Assembly: GCA_026545225.1 (NCBI GenBank)
Contig: CM048851.1
Coordinates: 33,107,956 to 33,171,955 of the forward strand
DNA: 64,000 nt
DNA from: Cornus controversa
Taxonomy: Eukaryota; Streptophyta; Magnoliopsida; Cornales; Cornaceae
Direction of reading: 5' to 3'
The notes below the pieces were generated by a model. The model worked only from the letters and a program-made list of their open reading frames with translations, made no database searches and was not told where the DNA came from. The translations under genes and the position numbers were made by a program. Shown one piece after another: positions 5,680 through 62,320 of the stretch (positions are counted from its first letter, which is position 1; every line of letters starts with the position of its first letter).

Positions 5680-5939
5680 GCCAAGCCATTCATTAAACAC
5701 CTGCACAGAGAAGCATCACAAAATACAATATTAAGAGTAGAGGTATAAAGGAAGACACAATGCAGTTTGACTTATAATGACATTAGAGTACAAATAACAT
5801 AATAAAAAAACTATGATACAGTTATTCATCATCAGGCTGAGAGGGATCAAGTCGATACTAGAAAGATAATAAATAATGTGAAGTATAAAATAATATTAGT
5901 CATTGGTTTGTAGAATTTTTATTATTGTCTAAGCTTTGG

Positions 5940-26102: not shown

Positions 26103-26149
26103 CACACCCCAACTAGTTCAAAAAATATCCCATTTTACTGCTCATATCC

Positions 26150-28429
26150 ATGGCTACTCATATTCCCTTGTATGTGTACCTTCTCTTAACCATAGTCTCA
26201 CAATTCATATCCATTTTGGCAGAGTCTGACATTTACATTGTTCATATGGACTTATCTGCTATGCCCAATGCCTTCTCTAGCCACCATAACTGGTACTTGG
26301 CCACACTTGCCTCTGTTACTGATAACTTCAAAGCAAGCACTACCACATCCTCTAATTTTATCTATGGTTATACTAATGTCATACATGGTTTTAGTGCAAA
26401 ACTCTCTCCTTCTGAGCTTGAAGCCATCAAAAAATCCCCCGGCTATGTTTCGTCAATCAGAGACATGCCTGTTAAAGTTGACACCTCCCATTCCTCCCAA
26501 TTCCTTGGCCTCAACTCCAACTCGGGGGCATGGCCAGCTTCGGACTATGGCAACGATGTGATCATCGGATTGGTGGACACGGGGATTTGGCCGGAGAGCA
26601 AGAGCTTCAATGATGAGGGATTATCTGAAATTCCATCTAGATGGAAAGGAGCGTGCGAGACTGGCACACAATTCGACTCCTCAATGTGCAACAAGAAGCT
26701 CATTGGAGCTCGCTTCTTCAACAAAGGCCTACTTGCCAAAAATCCCAATGTGAACATATCGATGAATTCAACCCGCGACATTGATGGGCACGGCACTCAT
26801 ACTTCAACCACAGCTGCTGGGAGCTACGTGGAAGGCGCGTCCTACTTCGGCTATGCCTCGGGGACTGCTCGAGGCATGGCTCCGCGGGCTCGAGTGGCCA
26901 TGTATAAGGCCCTCTGGGATGAAGGCAATTCTTTATCTGACATTCTTGCTGCGATTGATCAAGCGATTACAGATGGTGTTGATGTCCTGTCCTTGTCATT
27001 GGGCTTAGATGGTTTTCCTTTGTATGCAGATCCTGTAGCTATAGCCACATTTGCAGCCTTGGAGAAGGGTATATTTGTGTCTGCATCAGCAGGAAATGAA
27101 GGGCCTTTTCTTGAGACCCTACACAATGGGACACCTTGGGTCCTAACTGTTGCTGCAGGTACCATGGATCGCGAATTCAGTGGCACTGTCACTCTTGGCG
27201 ACGGAGCTTCAGTCACCGGATTGGCTCTCTATCCGGGGAATTCAACTTCAACCCAAGTCCCAATGGTTTTCATGGACACGTGCGAGAGAGATTTCGAGAA
27301 AATTGGGTACAAATTTGTTGTGTGCCAAGACAAGAATGACACTTTGGGTGAGCAAGTTTATAATGTTCAAAATGCAAAGGTTGCTGGAGGAATCTTCATA
27401 TCAAATAACACTGACCTAGAATTCTTCATTCAAAGCACGTTCCCTGCAGTTTTTTTGAATGTCCAAAAGGGTGAGACACTGTTGGATTACATCAAGACAA
27501 GCCATAACCCAAAAGCAAGCATTAAATTTCAAGAGACACAAATGGGTACCAAACCAGCACCAAGAGTGGCTAGCTATAGCTCAAGAGGGCCATCCCCAAG
27601 TTGCCCATTTGTCTTGAAGCCTGACATTATGGCTCCTGGTTCACTAGTCCTGGCTTCATGGCCTCAAAAAACTCCGGCAGCCGAAATTGATTTGGGGAAA
27701 CTTTTCAACAACTTCAACCTCTTGTCCGGGACATCCATGTCCTGCCCACACACTGCCGGAGTGGCGGCGCTCTTGAAGGGGGCCCACCCTGAATGGAGCC
27801 CCGCCGCAATCCGATCTGCCCTGATGACAACATCTGATTCAACCGACAACACTTTCAACCCTATCCAAGACATTGGATCCAAGAACCAACCTGCCATTCC
27901 TCTAGCCATGGGAGCTGGCCATATCAATCCAAACAAGGCCTTAGACCCCGGACTCGTATACGACATGAAAACAGAAGATTATGTTAATCTTCTTTGCGCA
28001 TTAAATTACACCATGAAGCAAATTCAGATCATCACAAGGTCATCTTCTTACCCTTGCTTGTCCCCATCATTGGACATCAACTACCCCTCTTTCATAGCCT
28101 TTTTCAATGTCAATGACTCGAAATCGGATGCTAATGTGGTACAAGAATTTCAAAGGACAGTCACTAATGTTGGAAATGGAATGTCAACTTATACTGCGAA
28201 ATTGACACCCATTGAAGGTTTGAAAGTCAGCGTTGTACCGGACAAATTGGTGTTCAGAGAGAAGTATGAGAAGCAAAGCTACAAGCTGAGCATAGAAGGT
28301 CCAAGATTGTTGTTGGACTTCGTAGTTTATGGTTCTCTGAGTTGGGTAGAGAGTGAAGGTAAACATGTAGTGAGAAGTCCCATAGTGGCAACAAGAATGA
28401 GTTCAAAGACACTGTCAGCTCAGACCTAA
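26150..28429 (+). CDS. Subtilisin-like serine protease, SBT1 family (SBT1.9/SBT1.8-like)
   Basis: This is an intronless reading frame of 759 residues, the usual length for plant subtilases. An N-terminal signal peptide (about residues 1-24, hydrophobic YVYLLLTIVSQFISILA) suggests secretion to the apoplast. An I9-type prodomain follows (about 28-112, starting IYIVHMDLSAMP). The catalytic triad is complete: Asp143 in VDTGIWPE, His214 in DGHGTHTS and Ser529 in SGTSMSCPHTAG. The oxyanion-hole Asn316 is in SAGNEGP. A protease-associated insert lies around 360-460, and a C-terminal Fn3-like domain around 655-750. The HMDLSAMP start and the overall pattern resemble Arabidopsis SBT1.9. The substrate is unknown; family members mature or degrade cell-wall and peptide-hormone substrates. 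A TATA box sits 55 bp upstream and an AATAAA lies at 28477. Two fragments of a related copy lie about 10 kb upstream. Confidence 0.95.
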   Translation: MATHIPLYVYLLLTIVSQFISILAESDIYIVHMDLSAMPNAFSSHHNWYLATLASVTDNFKASTTTSSNFIYGYTNVIHGFSAKLSPSELEAIKKSPGYVSSIRDMPVKVDTSHSSQFLGLNSNSGAWPASDYGNDVIIGLVDTGIWPESKSFNDEGLSEIPSRWKGACETGTQFDSSMCNKKLIGARFFNKGLLAKNPNVNISMNSTRDIDGHGTHTSTTAAGSYVEGASYFGYASGTARGMAPRARVAMYKALWDEGNSLSDILAAIDQAITDGVDVLSLSLGLDGFPLYADPVAIATFAALEKGIFVSASAGNEGPFLETLHNGTPWVLTVAAGTMDREFSGTVTLGDGASVTGLALYPGNSTSTQVPMVFMDTCERDFEKIGYKFVVCQDKNDTLGEQVYNVQNAKVAGGIFISNNTDLEFFIQSTFPAVFLNVQKGETLLDYIKTSHNPKASIKFQETQMGTKPAPRVASYSSRGPSPSCPFVLKPDIMAPGSLVLASWPQKTPAAEIDLGKLFNNFNLLSGTSMSCPHTAGVAALLKGAHPEWSPAAIRSALMTTSDSTDNTFNPIQDIGSKNQPAIPLAMGAGHINPNKALDPGLVYDMKTEDYVNLLCALNYTMKQIQIITRSSSYPCLSPSLDINYPSFIAFFNVNDSKSDANVVQEFQRTVTNVGNGMSTYTAKLTPIEGLKVSVVPDKLVFREKYEKQSYKLSIEGPRLLLDFVVYGSLSWVESEGKHVVRSPIVATRMSSKTLSAQT

Positions 28430-55615: not shown

Positions 55616-56790
55616 AAGACAATAGGAAGCTCATCGTCCACCGCAACCTCATCATGGAAGATTGCAAACGGTCAAAAAATCAACTGTTGGTTTAACCCAT
55701 GGTTATCTAATCCAAAAAATTTCTGTGTGATGCATAACCCTTAGAATTTTCAAGTTAATTCAATAACAAAAATGGTGGATCCCTTTTCTCACTCCTAGGA
55801 TGTAGCTAAAATCAACCAACACTTTAATTCCAGGGATGCTCGCCTAATCTTCCAAGTCATTCTTCGTCAATTTGGAGGTGAAAACATTGTTATTTGGTTA
55901 ATTTGGTTAGCTTTGACCAATGGCATCTTCTCAGTTATGAGTGTTTACCATTTCACATAATAACTTTTTCAGCCTTACAAACCTAATTAGAACAAATAAG
56001 TAGTAACAACTACCAAGAATTCAATTCACAGTGGCAAGGAATATATAAAAAAAAACCAAATAGAAGATTCAATTTTTTCTTTAGCAAAGCTACTACAATC
56101 AAATTTCAGTTGGTTAATCTCAAGTCTAGACTCATTATTCATATCTCTAAGTGTAAGTTATGTGGGGAAGTTGAAAAAAAATTCTATGTAAATGCCCCAC
56201 TACCCAAATGGTATGAGAAATCAGCCCCTTTTGTATTTATCCTTGCTTCTTCTCTTCTCCCCCATGGTATAATCAGTGGAGTTTTCTCCTTGATTTTTAG
56301 AAAAATTTGACATCTTCCTAGCGACATTATCCAATAATCTTATCTCCTATCAATCTCGTTGAACCCTGAGCTCAAATTGAACATGGACACCTTATTCAAC
56401 CATCTCTACAAAGACATAGGTGGAGGAATAATTATCCATGATTCTCAAGGTAACATTAAATTGGTCAAATCTATTTTCATAAGCCCCATATCGTTGGTAG
56501 AGATAATAAAAGCCTGGATTTTGAGAGAATCTTTCAAACTAGCTCAACTCTGGTCTCTTTCCAAGGTCACCTTTGAAGGTGACTGCAAAAACTTGATGAT
56601 TCTTCAACCTTTGGAGGTGTTGACCTCAGTCATTCTTGAAGGCATCAGAGACCTCCTAGCGTCTCACCTCCACTAGCTTCTCAAGTGGGCTCCTCGAAAT
56701 GAAAATTGCGTTGCTCATCCGATTGCCCAATTGGCCTCTTCTTGTAAAGTTAATGAGGGCATCTAAAAATAAAATAAGCATTACAAATCT
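55616..56790 (+). pseudogene. Second LINE copy, 5'-truncated (zf-RVT and RNase H end)
   Basis: The sequence carries the pre-zinc-finger region (INQHFNSRDARLIFQVILRQ, NGIFSVMSVYHF), the zf-RVT segment (SRLIIHISKCKLCGEVEKK) and a C-terminal RNase H-like domain. The RNase H part reads LNMDTLFNHLYKDIGGGIII, HDSQGNIKLV, FEGDCKNLM and then WAPRNENCVAHPIAQLASSC, the RVT_3 pattern of plant LINEs. It ends before an A-rich stretch at about 56766-56800. Frameshifts and stops are present. The duplicated zf-RVT segment shows it is a separate insertion from the LINE at 47.0-55.0 kb. Confidence 0.85.
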
Positions 56791-56799
56791 CTAAAAAAA

Positions 56800-57136
56800 A
56801 TGAATTTATCTTTAATTCTTGTTGTTTTATTGAAATTATACTCATAAGTCGAGTCTCAACTACAGGTCATGGAAAAGTAAATCAAAATTGAAACATTGAC
56901 TGTGAAAATTATAATCCTTCGTTGGTAAGCAACAAACATAATTAGCAAGTATTTGAAAAAAGAAAAGAAAAAAAAAGCAATAAACAAGCAAAACAGAAGT
57001 GGCCCTAAATCCTTCTAGATCAGTCTATGTCAAGCAGGTTAGGCCTTGCCACTGTTCGACCCAAATTTTCTACAATTTCAAACCAATCCACTCAACGCAA
57101 GAAATAATAGTGGCCCTTTCATTATTTTTTAGTGAA
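56800..57136. other. Spacer between LINE debris and Pack-MULE
   Basis: No gene was recognised in this AT-rich stretch. Part of it is probably distal promoter or intergenic sequence that originally lay closer to the SBP1-type gene. Confidence 0.4.
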
Positions 57137-57145
57137 TTTTTATTA

Positions 57146-57755
57146 AAGTAAACTACTCTGACCTGCCCTAAGGTTTGCTTTTATTACCCTCAGCTTAAAC
57201 TAGTAAAATTTTTTTTGTTAACCTCCTTTCAAGTTTGGTTGATCTAACTCCCACTACCCCTCGCATTAGTTGGCTGTTAATTGACCATTAGTTCAATTAA
57301 AATAAAAAAATAGAATGACAAAAATGCCCTCAAAATTAGAAGAATTATATCTCTAATCCAAATCAAAACACTAAAATTAACACACAAATCACATTCTGTT
57401 ATATATATATAATACGATTCATCCCACCACCAACCCCCATTGTCATGACCTCCACCACACCACCGTCGCCACCTCTACCACTACCCACCATATTTCCCAT
57501 AGAAAACACACCACCAAGTTTCCCTGCCTAGAATGACCACTAGAATCTCATCTAATCATAGGCAATTGCATTAGTCCACCATGTCTCCCTCTCTCGCTTG
57601 CTTCGATTCAATTTTTTGTGTGGGGATATTTTGTTGAATTTTATATGTATGTATATGAGTATATGTGCATATGTGTATATATATATGTAGGCATTTTGAG
57701 TTCAAATTTTGAGTTGAGTTCAGCCCTAATTCGAATTTGGAAAATTTGGAGGATT

Positions 57756-57795
<40 letters not shown>

Positions 57796-58576
57796 AGTGT
57801 GTCTATATGTATGTATGGGTATTTTGAGTTCCAATTTTGGGATTTCCAGAATCTCAAAATCGCAGAGAGGTGGAAGACAGTGGTGGAGAGGGGATAGGTG
57901 GGCATCGGAGGAGCAAACTATGGTGGCAATGGTTGTGGCGAGCTCGACAGCGGTCTTGGCGTGGACGATGACATTGAAGGTCTCACCAGCGAGGGAGAGG
58001 TTGATATCAGTGTCACGTTCAACCTTGTTGAAGGGGGTGGAGGAGACGAGGATGGAGGTGTTGCATCCCTCGATGAGACAGTTGTGGAAGAAGTTGCGGA
58101 GGGTGGTGGAGGAGGTGATTTGGTTGTTGGTGATTGTGTCTAACATAATCTGTTCCAATCTTGTGCATGTTTTCTAGTAATAGTTGAGGGTGAGCCAATG
58201 TGATAGTCCATGGGATTGTGTGGGAGTAAGGAAAGAGAAAATGGTGGTGGTGCAGTGGCAGTGGTGCTAGTGTGGGACCATGGAAGGGAAATACATATCT
58301 ATATCTATATAATATTTAAGCTTGAATCTTGCAGTCCAAAATGTCTTTCGCTATCTACGGTCTAGAATTACTTTATCTGATGATCACGGTTGCAAGTACA
58401 TGATAGTGCCGTAGACACAGGTATATATATATATTATATTTGTTTGTTGTTTATATCACCAAGGGCAAATAGTTAAGGATATCTTTGTAATTATACAACA
58501 AGCATTAGTTTTTTTTAACGAAGGGGCCTAAGAGTTATTTTGCGAAAGACAGCAGGGGAGGTCGGGTAATTTACCC
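57146..58576. mobile_element. Pack-MULE-like Mutator element carrying a peroxidase fragment (1431 bp)
   Basis: The left end AAGTAAACTACTCTGACCTG continues ccctaaggtttg. The right-end complement GGGTAAATTACCCGACCTCC continues cctgctgtctttcg. TTTTTATTA is repeated exactly outside both ends (57137-57145, 58577-58585), a perfect 9-bp Mutator-type duplication. Inside are a CCACCA-rich block (57425-57490), an (AT)n run (57758-57792) and, on the minus strand, a class III peroxidase fragment (57895-58196). No transposase is present. The right end is 127 bp before the ATG of the SBP1-type gene. The perfect duplication suggests a relatively recent insertion. Confidence 0.85.
57895..58196 (-). pseudogene. 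Class III peroxidase fragment captured in a Mutator-type element
   Basis: The minus-strand translation starts LTLNYY-stop-KTCTRLEQIM. It continues TITNNQITSSTTLRNFFHNC, LIEGCNTSILVSSTPFNKVE and RDTDINLSLAGETFNVIVHA, then KTAVELA and a IVCSSDA block. This is the N-terminal part of a secretory (class III) plant peroxidase, usual form LRLFFHDC-x-V-x-GCDAS with ERDADINLSLPGDAFDVVVRAK. The distal Arg and His remain, but two conserved Asp of the calcium-site region are Asn (FFHNC, GCNTS). An in-frame stop lies near the mature N-terminus, and similarity ends around 57895. The heme-proximal half is absent. It is non-functional as an enzyme. It may still be transcribed antisense to the downstream gene. 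Confidence 0.88.
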
Positions 58577-58654
58577 TTTTTATTACTACTGCACAAAGTT
58601 TCCATATTATCAGATATAGATTCACTCTCCTCGGTCACCTCTCTCCAGTATATT

Positions 58655-58698
58655 ACAGAAACTCTCTCTCTCTCTCTCCTCCTCTCTCTCTCTCTAGC
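58655..58698 (+). repeat. (CT)n tract in the 5' leader of the SBP1-type gene
   Basis: CTCTCTCTCTCTCTC-type runs lie directly before the ATG at 58704. CT-rich leaders are common in plant genes and can act as core-promoter pyrimidine patches. The role here is inferred. Confidence 0.6.
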
Positions 58699-58703
58699 AA
58701 GTC

Positions 58704-61506
58704 ATGGCTATGCCCCAACACCAGTTCCAACAACAACAACGATCAAACACCTTCAGGTATGTTTTGCGCAGGATCAAAATTATCATCTTTAAAACCCTAG
58801 CATCACCAAGATTTTAATCAACAGATTCTTTAAATCACATATTCAATCTTTTTTTTTTGGGCTTTGTTTTCAGAAACTTGTATAACATCGACAGTCAGAT
58901 TCCGCCGCCGGTTACCTATTTCAACGGCCCTAATCTCGCCGATCAGTCTCAGCATCCTCCGTACATTCCTCCCTGTACAAGCTCTCTCTCTCATCTCTCT
59001 CCAATTGAAGTTTATTTTACACCAATTACATAAATCATCCTCATTTTTCTGTTGGGTTCTCTGTTATTCCAGTTCACGTGGTCGGCTTTGCACCTGGCCC
59101 GGTTCCAGCGGCCGATGGCAGCGATGGCGGAGTCGATTTGCAGTGGAACAACGGTTTGGAGCCGAAGAAAAGGAGACTGAAAGAGCAAGATTTCTTGGAG
59201 AACAATTCACAGATTTCTTCTGTTGATATCTTGCAGCCCCGATCAGTCTCCACCGGGTTAGGTCTGTCGCTGGACAATGGTCGCTTGGCTTCGTCGGTTG
59301 ACTCGCCCTTTCTCGCATTTGTTGGAGACGACATTGATCGCGAGCTACTGCGGCAGGATGCAGAGATTGATAGATTAATCAAAGTTCAGGTTCGCTTCTA
59401 TTTAAAGCTTCTATCTTGGTAACTAATTAGTTATGCCTAATTGGGAAAATGGGGGTTTTTGTTTTACTTTCCACATTTATACAACATTTGTTTCCGTTGA
59501 TTGAATTTAATCTGAAGAGGGAAATTGGTGGATGATTATTTGTTTTGTATGTATTAGATGATTCTATGTGATTGTATGTGTTATTTTGTTCACAGGTCTG
59601 ATCGATTTACTTGCCAAGTAAATTGTCATTGTTTTTTCTTTTTAAATTTTATGCAAAATTTGATTTTCTGTTGTTACCACACAATTCGTGAATGATTGAT
59701 ACATTACATGTAATATGTTCTTTAATGTGGATACTAACTTGGAAGTGAGATTCATTATTTCTGCGGGGTCTGAGAATCCATGAAAATTTGTTGAACCGTT
59801 ACACTACTATGGACAGTTTGTGTTTTAATATGCACTTGTTAATTGTGGAGAGTGAGGACATCCTGCCAAAATTGAATAAGTTGTGTTTACCGGCTAAATA
59901 TTCAGTGCAACAAATACATGTCGTCTAGTTGACAGGGTGTCACAAAACAATCGTCTTTCCCTGCCAATGCATGTTGTCGCACTCACTGTGGTCCACTCAT
60001 TTTGCGAGGATTGAGAAGAGGGAAAGTGGAGAGAGTAAGTGAGTGAGTCTGTGAGGACGCATTTGCAAGGTAAGAATTATTTTGTTTTTGATACCATGCA
60101 AGCAAAATGACATGGTGTCACTGTTGCATTGATTATTTACTCATGTTTACCTAGAAGTCAAAATGCAGCCACTGAGTTCACTTGTGTTGATTTTTAGAAA
60201 GCTTACATGTTTTTTTGTTTTTAAATTATTGATTTGGTGGTGAGTGTATCCTGCCAAAAAAGGAGTTTGCTGCGTGTGACATAACTGTAAAAGGGACCAT
60301 TGAGTTTTTTTTAACTTTTAAAAAGTGTACAAGCTATTAATTCTACTTGTAAAAAGAAATTGTATCTAGGGGTTTAATGAGGTTTCCTCAAATTTGTTCC
60401 TTTTTATGGTAATTATGGCATCACATTGTCGTGCTGTAACACGAGCATTCAACTGCCATGGAAAACATAATGCCCCTAGGTTGCATCTCTACATCTCATA
60501 GAAACTATATGACTAATTGGAGTAGCATTAGGCAATAGAATTTGAGCAATGTGTATGTGGTCATTGGTTAAGGTTGCAACCATCATGCCAACAAATACAG
60601 TGAAAGTTTTTCCAATATTGCTATTTGTCATTTTTTATATTTATCTTCTAATGCTATTTAAAACTCGATGGTGCCATTAAAATTTCACGTGACACGCAAA
60701 TACAGACTGATCCATTTTCCATACAGCTTATGGATGTGACACAAATTAATGTTTTATTGAGTTAATTAAACTATTAAGCAAATGACCAAACTGCCAACTT
60801 CAAATAAATGTCGAATAATACCGAATTGATAACCCAGAAGCTGTTATCGTTTTCTTTTTTCTTTTCTAATTAGTTCCCCTGACAAAATATCAGCTTGGAT
60901 TTTTAGATAAAATATCCTTGTAAATTGATTATATGTCGATCTCTGAATTAAAACTACTTATCTTTCCTGGTTATAAAGGGTGATCGATTAAGGCAAGCAG
61001 TTCTAGAGAAGGTTCAGGCCAACCAACTCCAAACTATCTCACATGTTGAAGAAAAAGTCCTTCAGAAACTCCGTGAAAAAGAAGCAGAGGCAGACAATAT
61101 CAACAAGAAGAATTTGGAGCTTGAATTGCGGGTGGAACAGTTGGCTCTGGAAGCGGGTGCTTGGCAACAACGGGCTAAATACAACGAAAACATGATTAAC
61201 ACCCTTAAGTTCAATCTTCAGCAAGTCTATGCGCAGAGTAGAGATAGTAAAGAAGGGTGTGGCGACAGTGAGGTAGATGATACAGCCTCTTGCTGCAATG
61301 GTCGTGCCATTGATTTCCACCTGCTTTGCAAGGACAGCAATGAATTGAAGGAGTTGATGACTTGTAAGGTTTGTAGAGTCAACGAGGTGTGCATGCTTTT
61401 GTTACCTTGTAAGCATCTCTGTCTGTGTAAAGATTGTGAAAGTAAGCTTAGTCTTTGTCCCTTGTGTCAGTCCTCTAAGTTTATTGGCATGGAGGTCTAT
61501 ATGTAG
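58704..61506 (+). CDS. SBP1: RING E3 ubiquitin ligase, S-RNase-binding protein 1 (SBP1) / BOI-related
   Basis: There are four exons: 58704-58756, 58874-58974, 59073-59389 and 60979-61506. All introns are GT/AG, and the frame is preserved across the joins, giving 332 residues. The N-terminal region (about 30-150) has the family blocks SQHPPYIPPFHVVGFAPG, EPKKRRLKEQDF and SVSTGLGLSLDNGRLAS. A coiled-coil follows (about 140-240: RQDAEIDRLIKVQGDRLRQA onward). The C-terminal C3HC4 RING uses C286, C289, C301, H303, C307, C310, C317 and C320, and the protein ends GMEVYM. The sequence is very close to the petunia SBP1 type. Family members bind S-RNases or act as ubiquitin ligases in stress, cell-death and gibberellin responses. 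Intron 3 is long (1589 bp). A Pack-MULE ends 127 bp upstream of the ATG, and a CT-rich leader precedes it. The symbol is by homology. Confidence 0.95.
59390..60978 (+). other. Long third intron of the SBP1-type gene
   Basis: The intron is 1589 bp, from GTTCGC to TAAAG. It is T-rich like plant introns, and no nested gene or clear transposon ends were seen. Confidence 0.8.
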
Positions 61507-61764
61507 TGAGATACGTGAATGTCTAATGCTATATTGCATGCATTGTTCTTGTTGTTTGGGTAAATGCTTCATCTTGGCTTATTCTGTACTTTCCTAGCAC
61601 TTTATATCTCCTACATGTTTAGAGACTGTCTTGAACATCTGCAAATGTTGCATATCAGTTCCATTCCCTTTGATGGTGTAATATGTATTGCTCTGGTTAT
61701 AAGTCAATGCTTGCTTGAATAGATTGCTGCTTGCTTTGGGCCACATGGGGGGCTCAACTCAACA

Positions 61765-61858
61765 AAGCTCCATGTAACATACAAATACAGCGAGACAATA
61801 TTTGTATTTGAAGCTCCATGTAACATACAAACACAAGAAGGAAAATATTTTTATTTGA
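61765..61858. repeat. Two-copy tandem repeat, about 47 bp unit, in the SBP1-type 3' region
   Basis: Both copies begin 'agctccatgtaacatacaa' and end 'atttttatttg' / 'atttgtatttg'. The repeat lies 260 bp after the stop codon, so it may sit in or just beyond the 3' UTR. Confidence 0.85.
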
Positions 61859-62320
61859 ATTTTTGTAAGGAGAAATTGGCTAGTACTGACATTATTCCTT
61901 TTTCCCATGTGAATCTATGTATATCACATAGTTTTGAATCTTAGCATGCTTCATGGTGTATGGATCAAAATGTTATCTGAAAGTGCCAGGTGAGGGACTA
62001 TGCAAGTGTTCAACCATTTTTCGGTAATTACTTGTGGGTTTTTGTTTGAAGTTCTAAATTTTATTATAATGTTTCTTCTCTGTTAGGGAAGCCCTATTTT
62101 ATCAACCTTGAACAAATATTGGGGTTGTCTCTACCTATCTTGGGCCCAGTGCCTACTGCACTTGTACTAAACAACTTATTGAAGTACTCTCAATATCTAT
62201 ATCTCAAGATTGAATATTGAAGTTCATAAAATGGCTTTTTAACTCTGATAATAAATAGTAACTCGATATTTATCTTGGTAGGAAACTTGTGAAAACTTGC
62301 ATATGACAAGGAACACGAGC

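Follow-up and report, generated by a model that had tools for sequence, protein, structure and literature searches.

Pack-MULEs of rice and other plants carry terminal inverted repeats, a 9-bp target-site duplication and a captured gene piece, occur in multiple copies, show a higher GC content in the captured part and take up 5′ positions at genes, and in all of these respects the element described here resembles them. It is unlike them in that its ends are decayed and part of its interior has been swapped for a second dispersed sequence. A 9-bp target-site duplication is a hallmark of Mutator elements. In maize and rice, Pack-MULE occupancy is highest just upstream of TSSs, according to PMC7337890, and PMC8903248 describes Pack-TYPE elements whose genic sequence derives from two or more loci. 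The interior of our element likewise comes from at least two sources, but differs in that the second source is a dispersed sequence, present partly in elements with the same ends, that holds no recognized gene.

The window analyzed here is a stretch of 64,000 nucleotides of Cornus controversa DNA. We interpret the 1,431-bp segment at 57146–58576, lying between two perfect copies of TTTTTATTA, as a non-autonomous Mutator-like Pack-MULE inserted upstream of an SBP1-type gene, where it is most likely a tolerated passenger, and we give this reading, together with the history set out below, a probability of roughly 0.87. This is an ordinary Pack-MULE, and the kind of event is already well known. 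The features are as follows:

57137–57145, no strand: left target-site duplication, 9 bp, TTTTTATTA
57146–57205, plus strand: left terminal inverted repeat region, AAGTAAACTACTCTGACC..., decayed from GGGTAAATTACTCTGACC...
57146–57488, plus strand: left arm, common in part or whole to loci L009, L010, L011, L012 and L015 (71–83% identity)
57485–57939, no strand: fragment X, replacing part of the peroxidase-type interior (87% identity to L016, 73% to L017, and in part 85% to L018)
57937–58253, minus strand: class III peroxidase fragment, N-terminal, broken (12-bp deletion and in-frame TAG common to the sister copies)
58304–58421, plus strand: nested copy of a high-copy repeat of about 131 bp, in TA-rich sequence, mostly absent from L009, L011 and L015
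58422–58576, plus strand: right arm, matched by L009, L011 and L012 to about 58515–58520 (83–85%), plus the terminal repeat
58547–58576, minus strand: right terminal inverted repeat, GGGTAAATTACCCGACCTCCCC
58577–58585, no strand: right target-site duplication, 9 bp, TTTTTATTA
58586–58703, plus strand: stretch between element and ATG, with CATATTAT at –101, TATATT at –55 and a CT-rich tract at 58662–58695 (–42 to –9)
58704–61506, plus strand: SBP1-type RING ligase gene, exons 58704–58756, 58874–58974, 59073–59389 and 60979–61506 (borders by eye)

The coordinates of the original prediction proved exact to the base, and the perfect 9-bp duplication that it had placed around the element is indeed present at 57137–57145 and 58577–58585. 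Only 1 of 62,551 window positions carries a 9-mer that recurs unchanged at a spacing of 1,440 bp, and this one is necessarily the TTTTTATTA pair. Taken by themselves, these borders would also be consistent with a chance pair of 9-mers around a decayed peroxidase pseudogene, with no transposon involved: TTTTTATTA consists of A and T only and is found six times per strand in the window, and the likeness of the element's two ends to each other (first bases AAGTAAACTACTCTGACC; right end read inward GGGTAAATTACCCGACC) is modest, with 57 of 30,000 placements drawn at random reaching its score and a cruder measure of end-to-end likeness being nonsignificant (1,509 of 20,000). Each end is, however, much closer to the typed family terminus, random 30-mers from the window doing as well as the left end in 0 of 30,000 cases and as well as the right end in 2 of 30,000, although the left end is too decayed to be picked up by the family pattern with up to three mismatches allowed, a search that does recover the right end. 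The strong evidence for the ends is thus the match of each to a genome-wide terminus rather than their mutual likeness, and the imperfect terminal inverted repeats that had been predicted stand in the sense that each end fits the family, with the element's own ends being only moderately alike.

This terminus is widespread. The end pattern GGGTAAATTACNCNNACCNCCC has 951 exact matches in the 771.7-Mb genome, 472 forward and 479 reverse, compared to 0 for the reversed pattern that served as the control. Among 100 listed end places (C1 up to 92.8 Mb) we counted by eye 12 inward-facing pairs less than 3 kb apart, spanning 321–1,764 bp, and no outward-facing pairs. The duplication test took in 10 of these 12 pairs, of which seven are flanked by perfect 9-bp duplications (two of them T-rich), one by a duplication at 8/9 and two at 4/9, such that 8 of 10 true pairs reach at least 8/9; among 90 mismatched end pairings used as a control, 8/9 was reached in two and 9/9 in none. 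Perfect duplications at end pairs peak at a length of 9. As 9-bp duplications recur across the end family, the element can be assigned to the Mutator superfamily, as had been predicted. A genome-wide end family of this kind, with both ends of the element near its terminus and the same ends and interior at three further sites, makes a coincidental 9-mer pair around a pseudogene negligibly probable; we rejected that reading, as the sister copies already contradict it.

The element appears to be non-autonomous. Among frames of at least 130 aa, the only one inside it is the frame running through the peroxidase piece and fragment X, and none encodes a transposase. The MULE transposase domain PF10551 is plentiful in the genome (150 matches scored out of 886 candidates). 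Unlike Pack-MULEs elsewhere, however, the window element has no transposase partner among the loci covered, with no family end within 1.5 kb on either side of PF10551 at 20 loci, and none of the 15 PF10551 domains listed on C1:1–92.8 Mb (from the 150 of 886 candidates) lying, by eye, less than 10 kb from the 100 listed end matches.

The existence of sister copies had been set beforehand as one test of the Pack-MULE assignment, and three were found that hold both the right arm and the peroxidase fragment. The right arm (58440–58576) has four genome matches, namely, the window copy, L011 (C1:67.638 Mb), L009 (C1:127.914 Mb) and L012 (C1:105.378 Mb), the sister matches covering its first 76–81 bases, and all three sisters also hold left-arm and peroxidase sequence. 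The flanking duplications are perfect (9/9) in the window copy and L012, as well as in L011, where the duplicated sequence is poly-T, and reach 7/9 in L016 and 8/9 in L043 (the latter by eye). No recognizable duplication flanks L009 (best 5/9), and that of L015 appears only with shifted, A-rich ends. We also observed a nested 744-bp element with the same end type and a perfect 9-bp duplication (TATATGTAT) at L012:4733–5476, as well as a match at 91% identity between L010:1010–3073 and L011:808–2835, about 50 kb apart on the same contig, comprising about 2 kb of flank and the left end of the element, which is cut short in L010.

The captured piece is a reverse-oriented class III peroxidase fragment, as anticipated: PF00141 matches residues 12–80 of the minus-strand frame P0001 (E = 9.8e-08), spanning profile positions 7–71 of 237, and nothing else in Pfam matches P0001 at an E-value of 0.1 or better. 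The captured part has a GC content of 0.50, compared to 0.39 for the whole element and 0.33 for the window. The assignment as a Pack-MULE is borne out by this captured, multicopy fragment of a host gene that has full-length counterparts elsewhere; the element also has the 5′-end position that is a tendency, though no requirement, of Pack-MULEs. Two full-length, single-frame peroxidase genes (L013 and L014, 86% alike), the loci being C1:125.63 Mb and C2:11.05 Mb, came out of the search for a parental gene, which had been proposed as a follow-up; they are candidate parents, if either is the parent at all.

In a tree of seven rows and 330 columns (the midpoint root serving for drawing only), the four transposon peroxidase pieces form one clade with support of 100/100, apart from L013, L014 and a third peroxidase; for L012, the distances and the tree used the distal portion of the peroxidase piece alone, leaving out what lies past the nested element. 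The same 12 bp are absent from all four pieces, in L009 within a longer gap. Given the shared clade and the shared 12-bp loss, a single capture followed by dispersal is the simplest reading, and the peroxidase piece was thus probably captured once. The pieces retain different lengths of the gene: 535 bp in L009 (against the L013 gene) and 317 bp in the window copy. The smallest K2P distance from the window copy to a sister is 0.153 (L009, 307 sites), and the peroxidase Pack-MULE family is therefore not young.

We observed no clear sign of constraint in the peroxidase piece when comparing codon positions with L009, L011 and L012. Differences at positions 1/2/3 of the window copy are 0.157/0.108/0.146 against L009, 0.155/0.169/0.169 against L012, and 0.205/0.167/0.274 against L011, where there is some third-position excess but the row holds a poorly aligned tail; between the L013 and L014 genes, they are 0.09/0.108/0.198. 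A coding function of the piece was considered and rejected, the domain being partial and the stop and deletion shared.

The fragment could instead feed antisense transcripts or small RNAs acting against the full-length peroxidase genes. Its longest exact matches are one of 30 nt to the L014 gene and one of 19 nt to L013, and the former could hold 21–24-nt small RNAs, so that targeting of L014 would be possible in principle; moreover, captured fragments in maize are described as siRNA reservoirs in PMC13317346. However, overall identity to L013 and L014 is about 78–80%, the longest L013 match is just the 19 nt given above, and the sister copies could do the same, and we therefore regard such a regulatory role as quite improbable.

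The interior of the window element is chimeric. Fragment X is a 455-bp stretch from another dispersed sequence, occupying the place that is taken in the sisters by more peroxidase and other sequence, and contains (TA)17 at 57758–57792 and an internal duplication of about 70 bp; no Pfam domain was found in the one ORF tested, which was taken from L016. Elements L016 and L018 bear ends of the same type as the window element, and X-like sequence with at least one family-type end is present at L016, L018, L043 and L049; at the X-like loci L017, L051 and L054, no family-type end was found. The two joints of fragment X show short overlaps, CCAC (57485–57488, 4 bp) and GGC (57937–57939, 3 bp). For animal Pack-TIRs, PMC8277862 gives microhomology (1–36 bp, median 2) at at least one breakpoint in 190 (67.6%), and reads junction microhomology as a sign of template switching. 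Fragment X may likewise have been gained through template switching during gap repair. The locus thus offers a clean case of stepwise Pack-MULE assembly, with apparently one capture, several transpositions, a partial replacement of the interior and short joint overlaps, and with copies beside the 5′ ends of three unrelated genes. It bears on how Pack-MULEs acquire cargo and on where their copies survive, and every one of these points has precedents.

The nested stretch in the right part of the element, about 120 bp in length, belongs to a repeat of about 131 bp for which the genome search gave 963 first-look candidates, 40 of them scored, with 51 matches. The eight copies inspected adjoin a TA or GT microsatellite, and one of them (L105) is in tandem. 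Five of the eight (L101–L105, but not L098–L100) have, by eye, a TC start and a CTAG or CTAA end between A and T, as well as a hairpin near GTGCCGTAGGCAC; in the window copy, the TC is present, the hairpin is weakened and the CTAG end is missing. Helitrons have a 5′ TC, a 3′ hairpin with CTRR and insertion between A and T as their hallmarks, and comparison with these hallmarks suggests that the repeat may be a mini-Helitron. SaTar and Micron are the microsatellite-targeted elements of guayule and rice described in PMC5907723. Like them, our repeat sits in or beside TA-rich microsatellite, singly or arrayed, but it is shorter and its ends are mini-Helitron-like (TC ... hairpin ... CTAG) rather than of the MULE type. 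Among the papers searched, none combined Helitron, microsatellite, CTAGT and hairpin.

Turning to the surroundings of the copies, the window element ends 127 bp upstream of the ATG, L012 ends 100 bp upstream of one, and L009 541 bp (523 bp should translation begin at an in-frame ATG located 18 nt upstream). At L012 (2775–5811), the last base of the element is 5710, and the first exon of a GRXS16-like gene has its ATG at 5811; this exon, of 128 aa, matches PDB 2lwf (E = 1.1e-17) and has no match in Pfam or NCBIfam. At L009 (1998–4470), where the element ends at 2540, a GXM-type gene on the minus strand, which matches PF21729 at full length (E = 3.2e-76), has its ATG at 1998. The survey of neighboring genes covered ORFs of at least 90 aa beside L009, L011, L012, L015 and L016 (19 ORFs, seven of which were given to Pfam), and recognized no gene beside L011, L015 or L016, so that the proportion is three of four in the peroxidase family and three of six among all copies examined.

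With three of four copies at 100, 127 and 541 bp from an ATG, the predicted preference for 5′ ends of genes is upheld. Random insertion would place three of four copies upstream of an ATG at no more than 541 bp with a probability of 2e-5 to 9e-5 (assuming 25,000–40,000 genes), and insertion into gene-rich space with a probability of 0.004 or 0.06 (hit probability 0.1 or 0.27, respectively), the 541-bp distance having been picked after seeing the data. Given the occupancy maximum of Pack-MULEs immediately ahead of TSSs in maize and rice (PMC7337890), this placement is the expected behavior, and it could reflect Mutator target preference, with insertions near promoters also being purged less strongly than those within genes. 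That the right arm is a portable promoter-proximal module, delivered repeatedly about 0.1–0.5 kb from the start codons of three unrelated genes (SBP1-type, GRXS16-like and GXM-type), we consider very improbable.

The neighboring gene, which we take to be an SBP1-type RING ligase, appears intact, as had been claimed: with the exons joined by eye, the frame is open through 332 codons over four exons, with PF13920 at E = 1.8e-09, and its ATG at 58704 lies 127 bp from the right end of the element, confirming the predicted distance. A partial, stop-containing copy of its RING exon is present at C7:33188484–33188732 (89%), about 19 kb downstream and about 16.5 kb past the right end of the window; this partial copy aside, the next genome matches are 41–44% identical across the C-terminal half. 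The 5′ region of the gene has no DNA match at the partial copy. Searches for an empty site returned only the left flank itself (56600–57145) in the genome, and for the right side (58577–59450), beyond itself, 12 short matches of 36–49 bases, all at query positions 73–125, in the CT-rich tract.

The earlier proposal was that the element had probably displaced the proximal promoter or leader of the ligase gene or was now providing part of it, and the right part of the element would in the latter case be the working promoter or 5′ leader. In keeping with such a role, the element ends close to the ATG, two sisters present the same end to genes, TATATA/TATATT motifs lie within the element at –398 and from –282 to –269, and PMC8277862 states that Pack-MULEs possibly contribute to 5′ UTRs of host genes. 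However, the motifs from –282 to –269 lie in TA microsatellite, no scanned motif occurs from –263 to –102, which includes the last 136 bp of the element, and the orientation shared by the window copy, L009 and L012, in which the right end faces the gene, has a chance expectation of one in four. Moreover, the CT-rich tract and the two TATA-like motifs (–101 and –55) lie outside the element, are also present in the joined empty-site view, and separate the element from the ATG, such that a core promoter outside the element is the more likely arrangement; there is no upstream ATG in 58586–58703. A promoter or leader role of the element is thus unlikely, if less so than the small-RNA role considered above. 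Judging from these motifs, transcription of the RING gene would start between the element and the ATG.

In our preferred reading, that of a tolerated Pack-MULE passenger, the RING gene would retain a core promoter of its own past the right end of the element, and distal promoter sequence would have been moved 1.44 kb farther away. That distance now separates the proximal stretch from whatever sequence formerly preceded it. Of the two proposed effects, the displacement of distal promoter sequence therefore follows from position, while the supply of a proximal promoter or leader is unsupported, the TATA-like and CT-rich features lying outside the element.

Rfam, at gathering scores, returned no match across 56000–62000. 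Upstream of the element, a reverse-transcriptase-like remnant (RVT_3, PF13456) is present at 56338–56676, and farther away in the window, a 770-codon open frame at 26117–28429 has, by eye, the appearance of a subtilisin-like protease.
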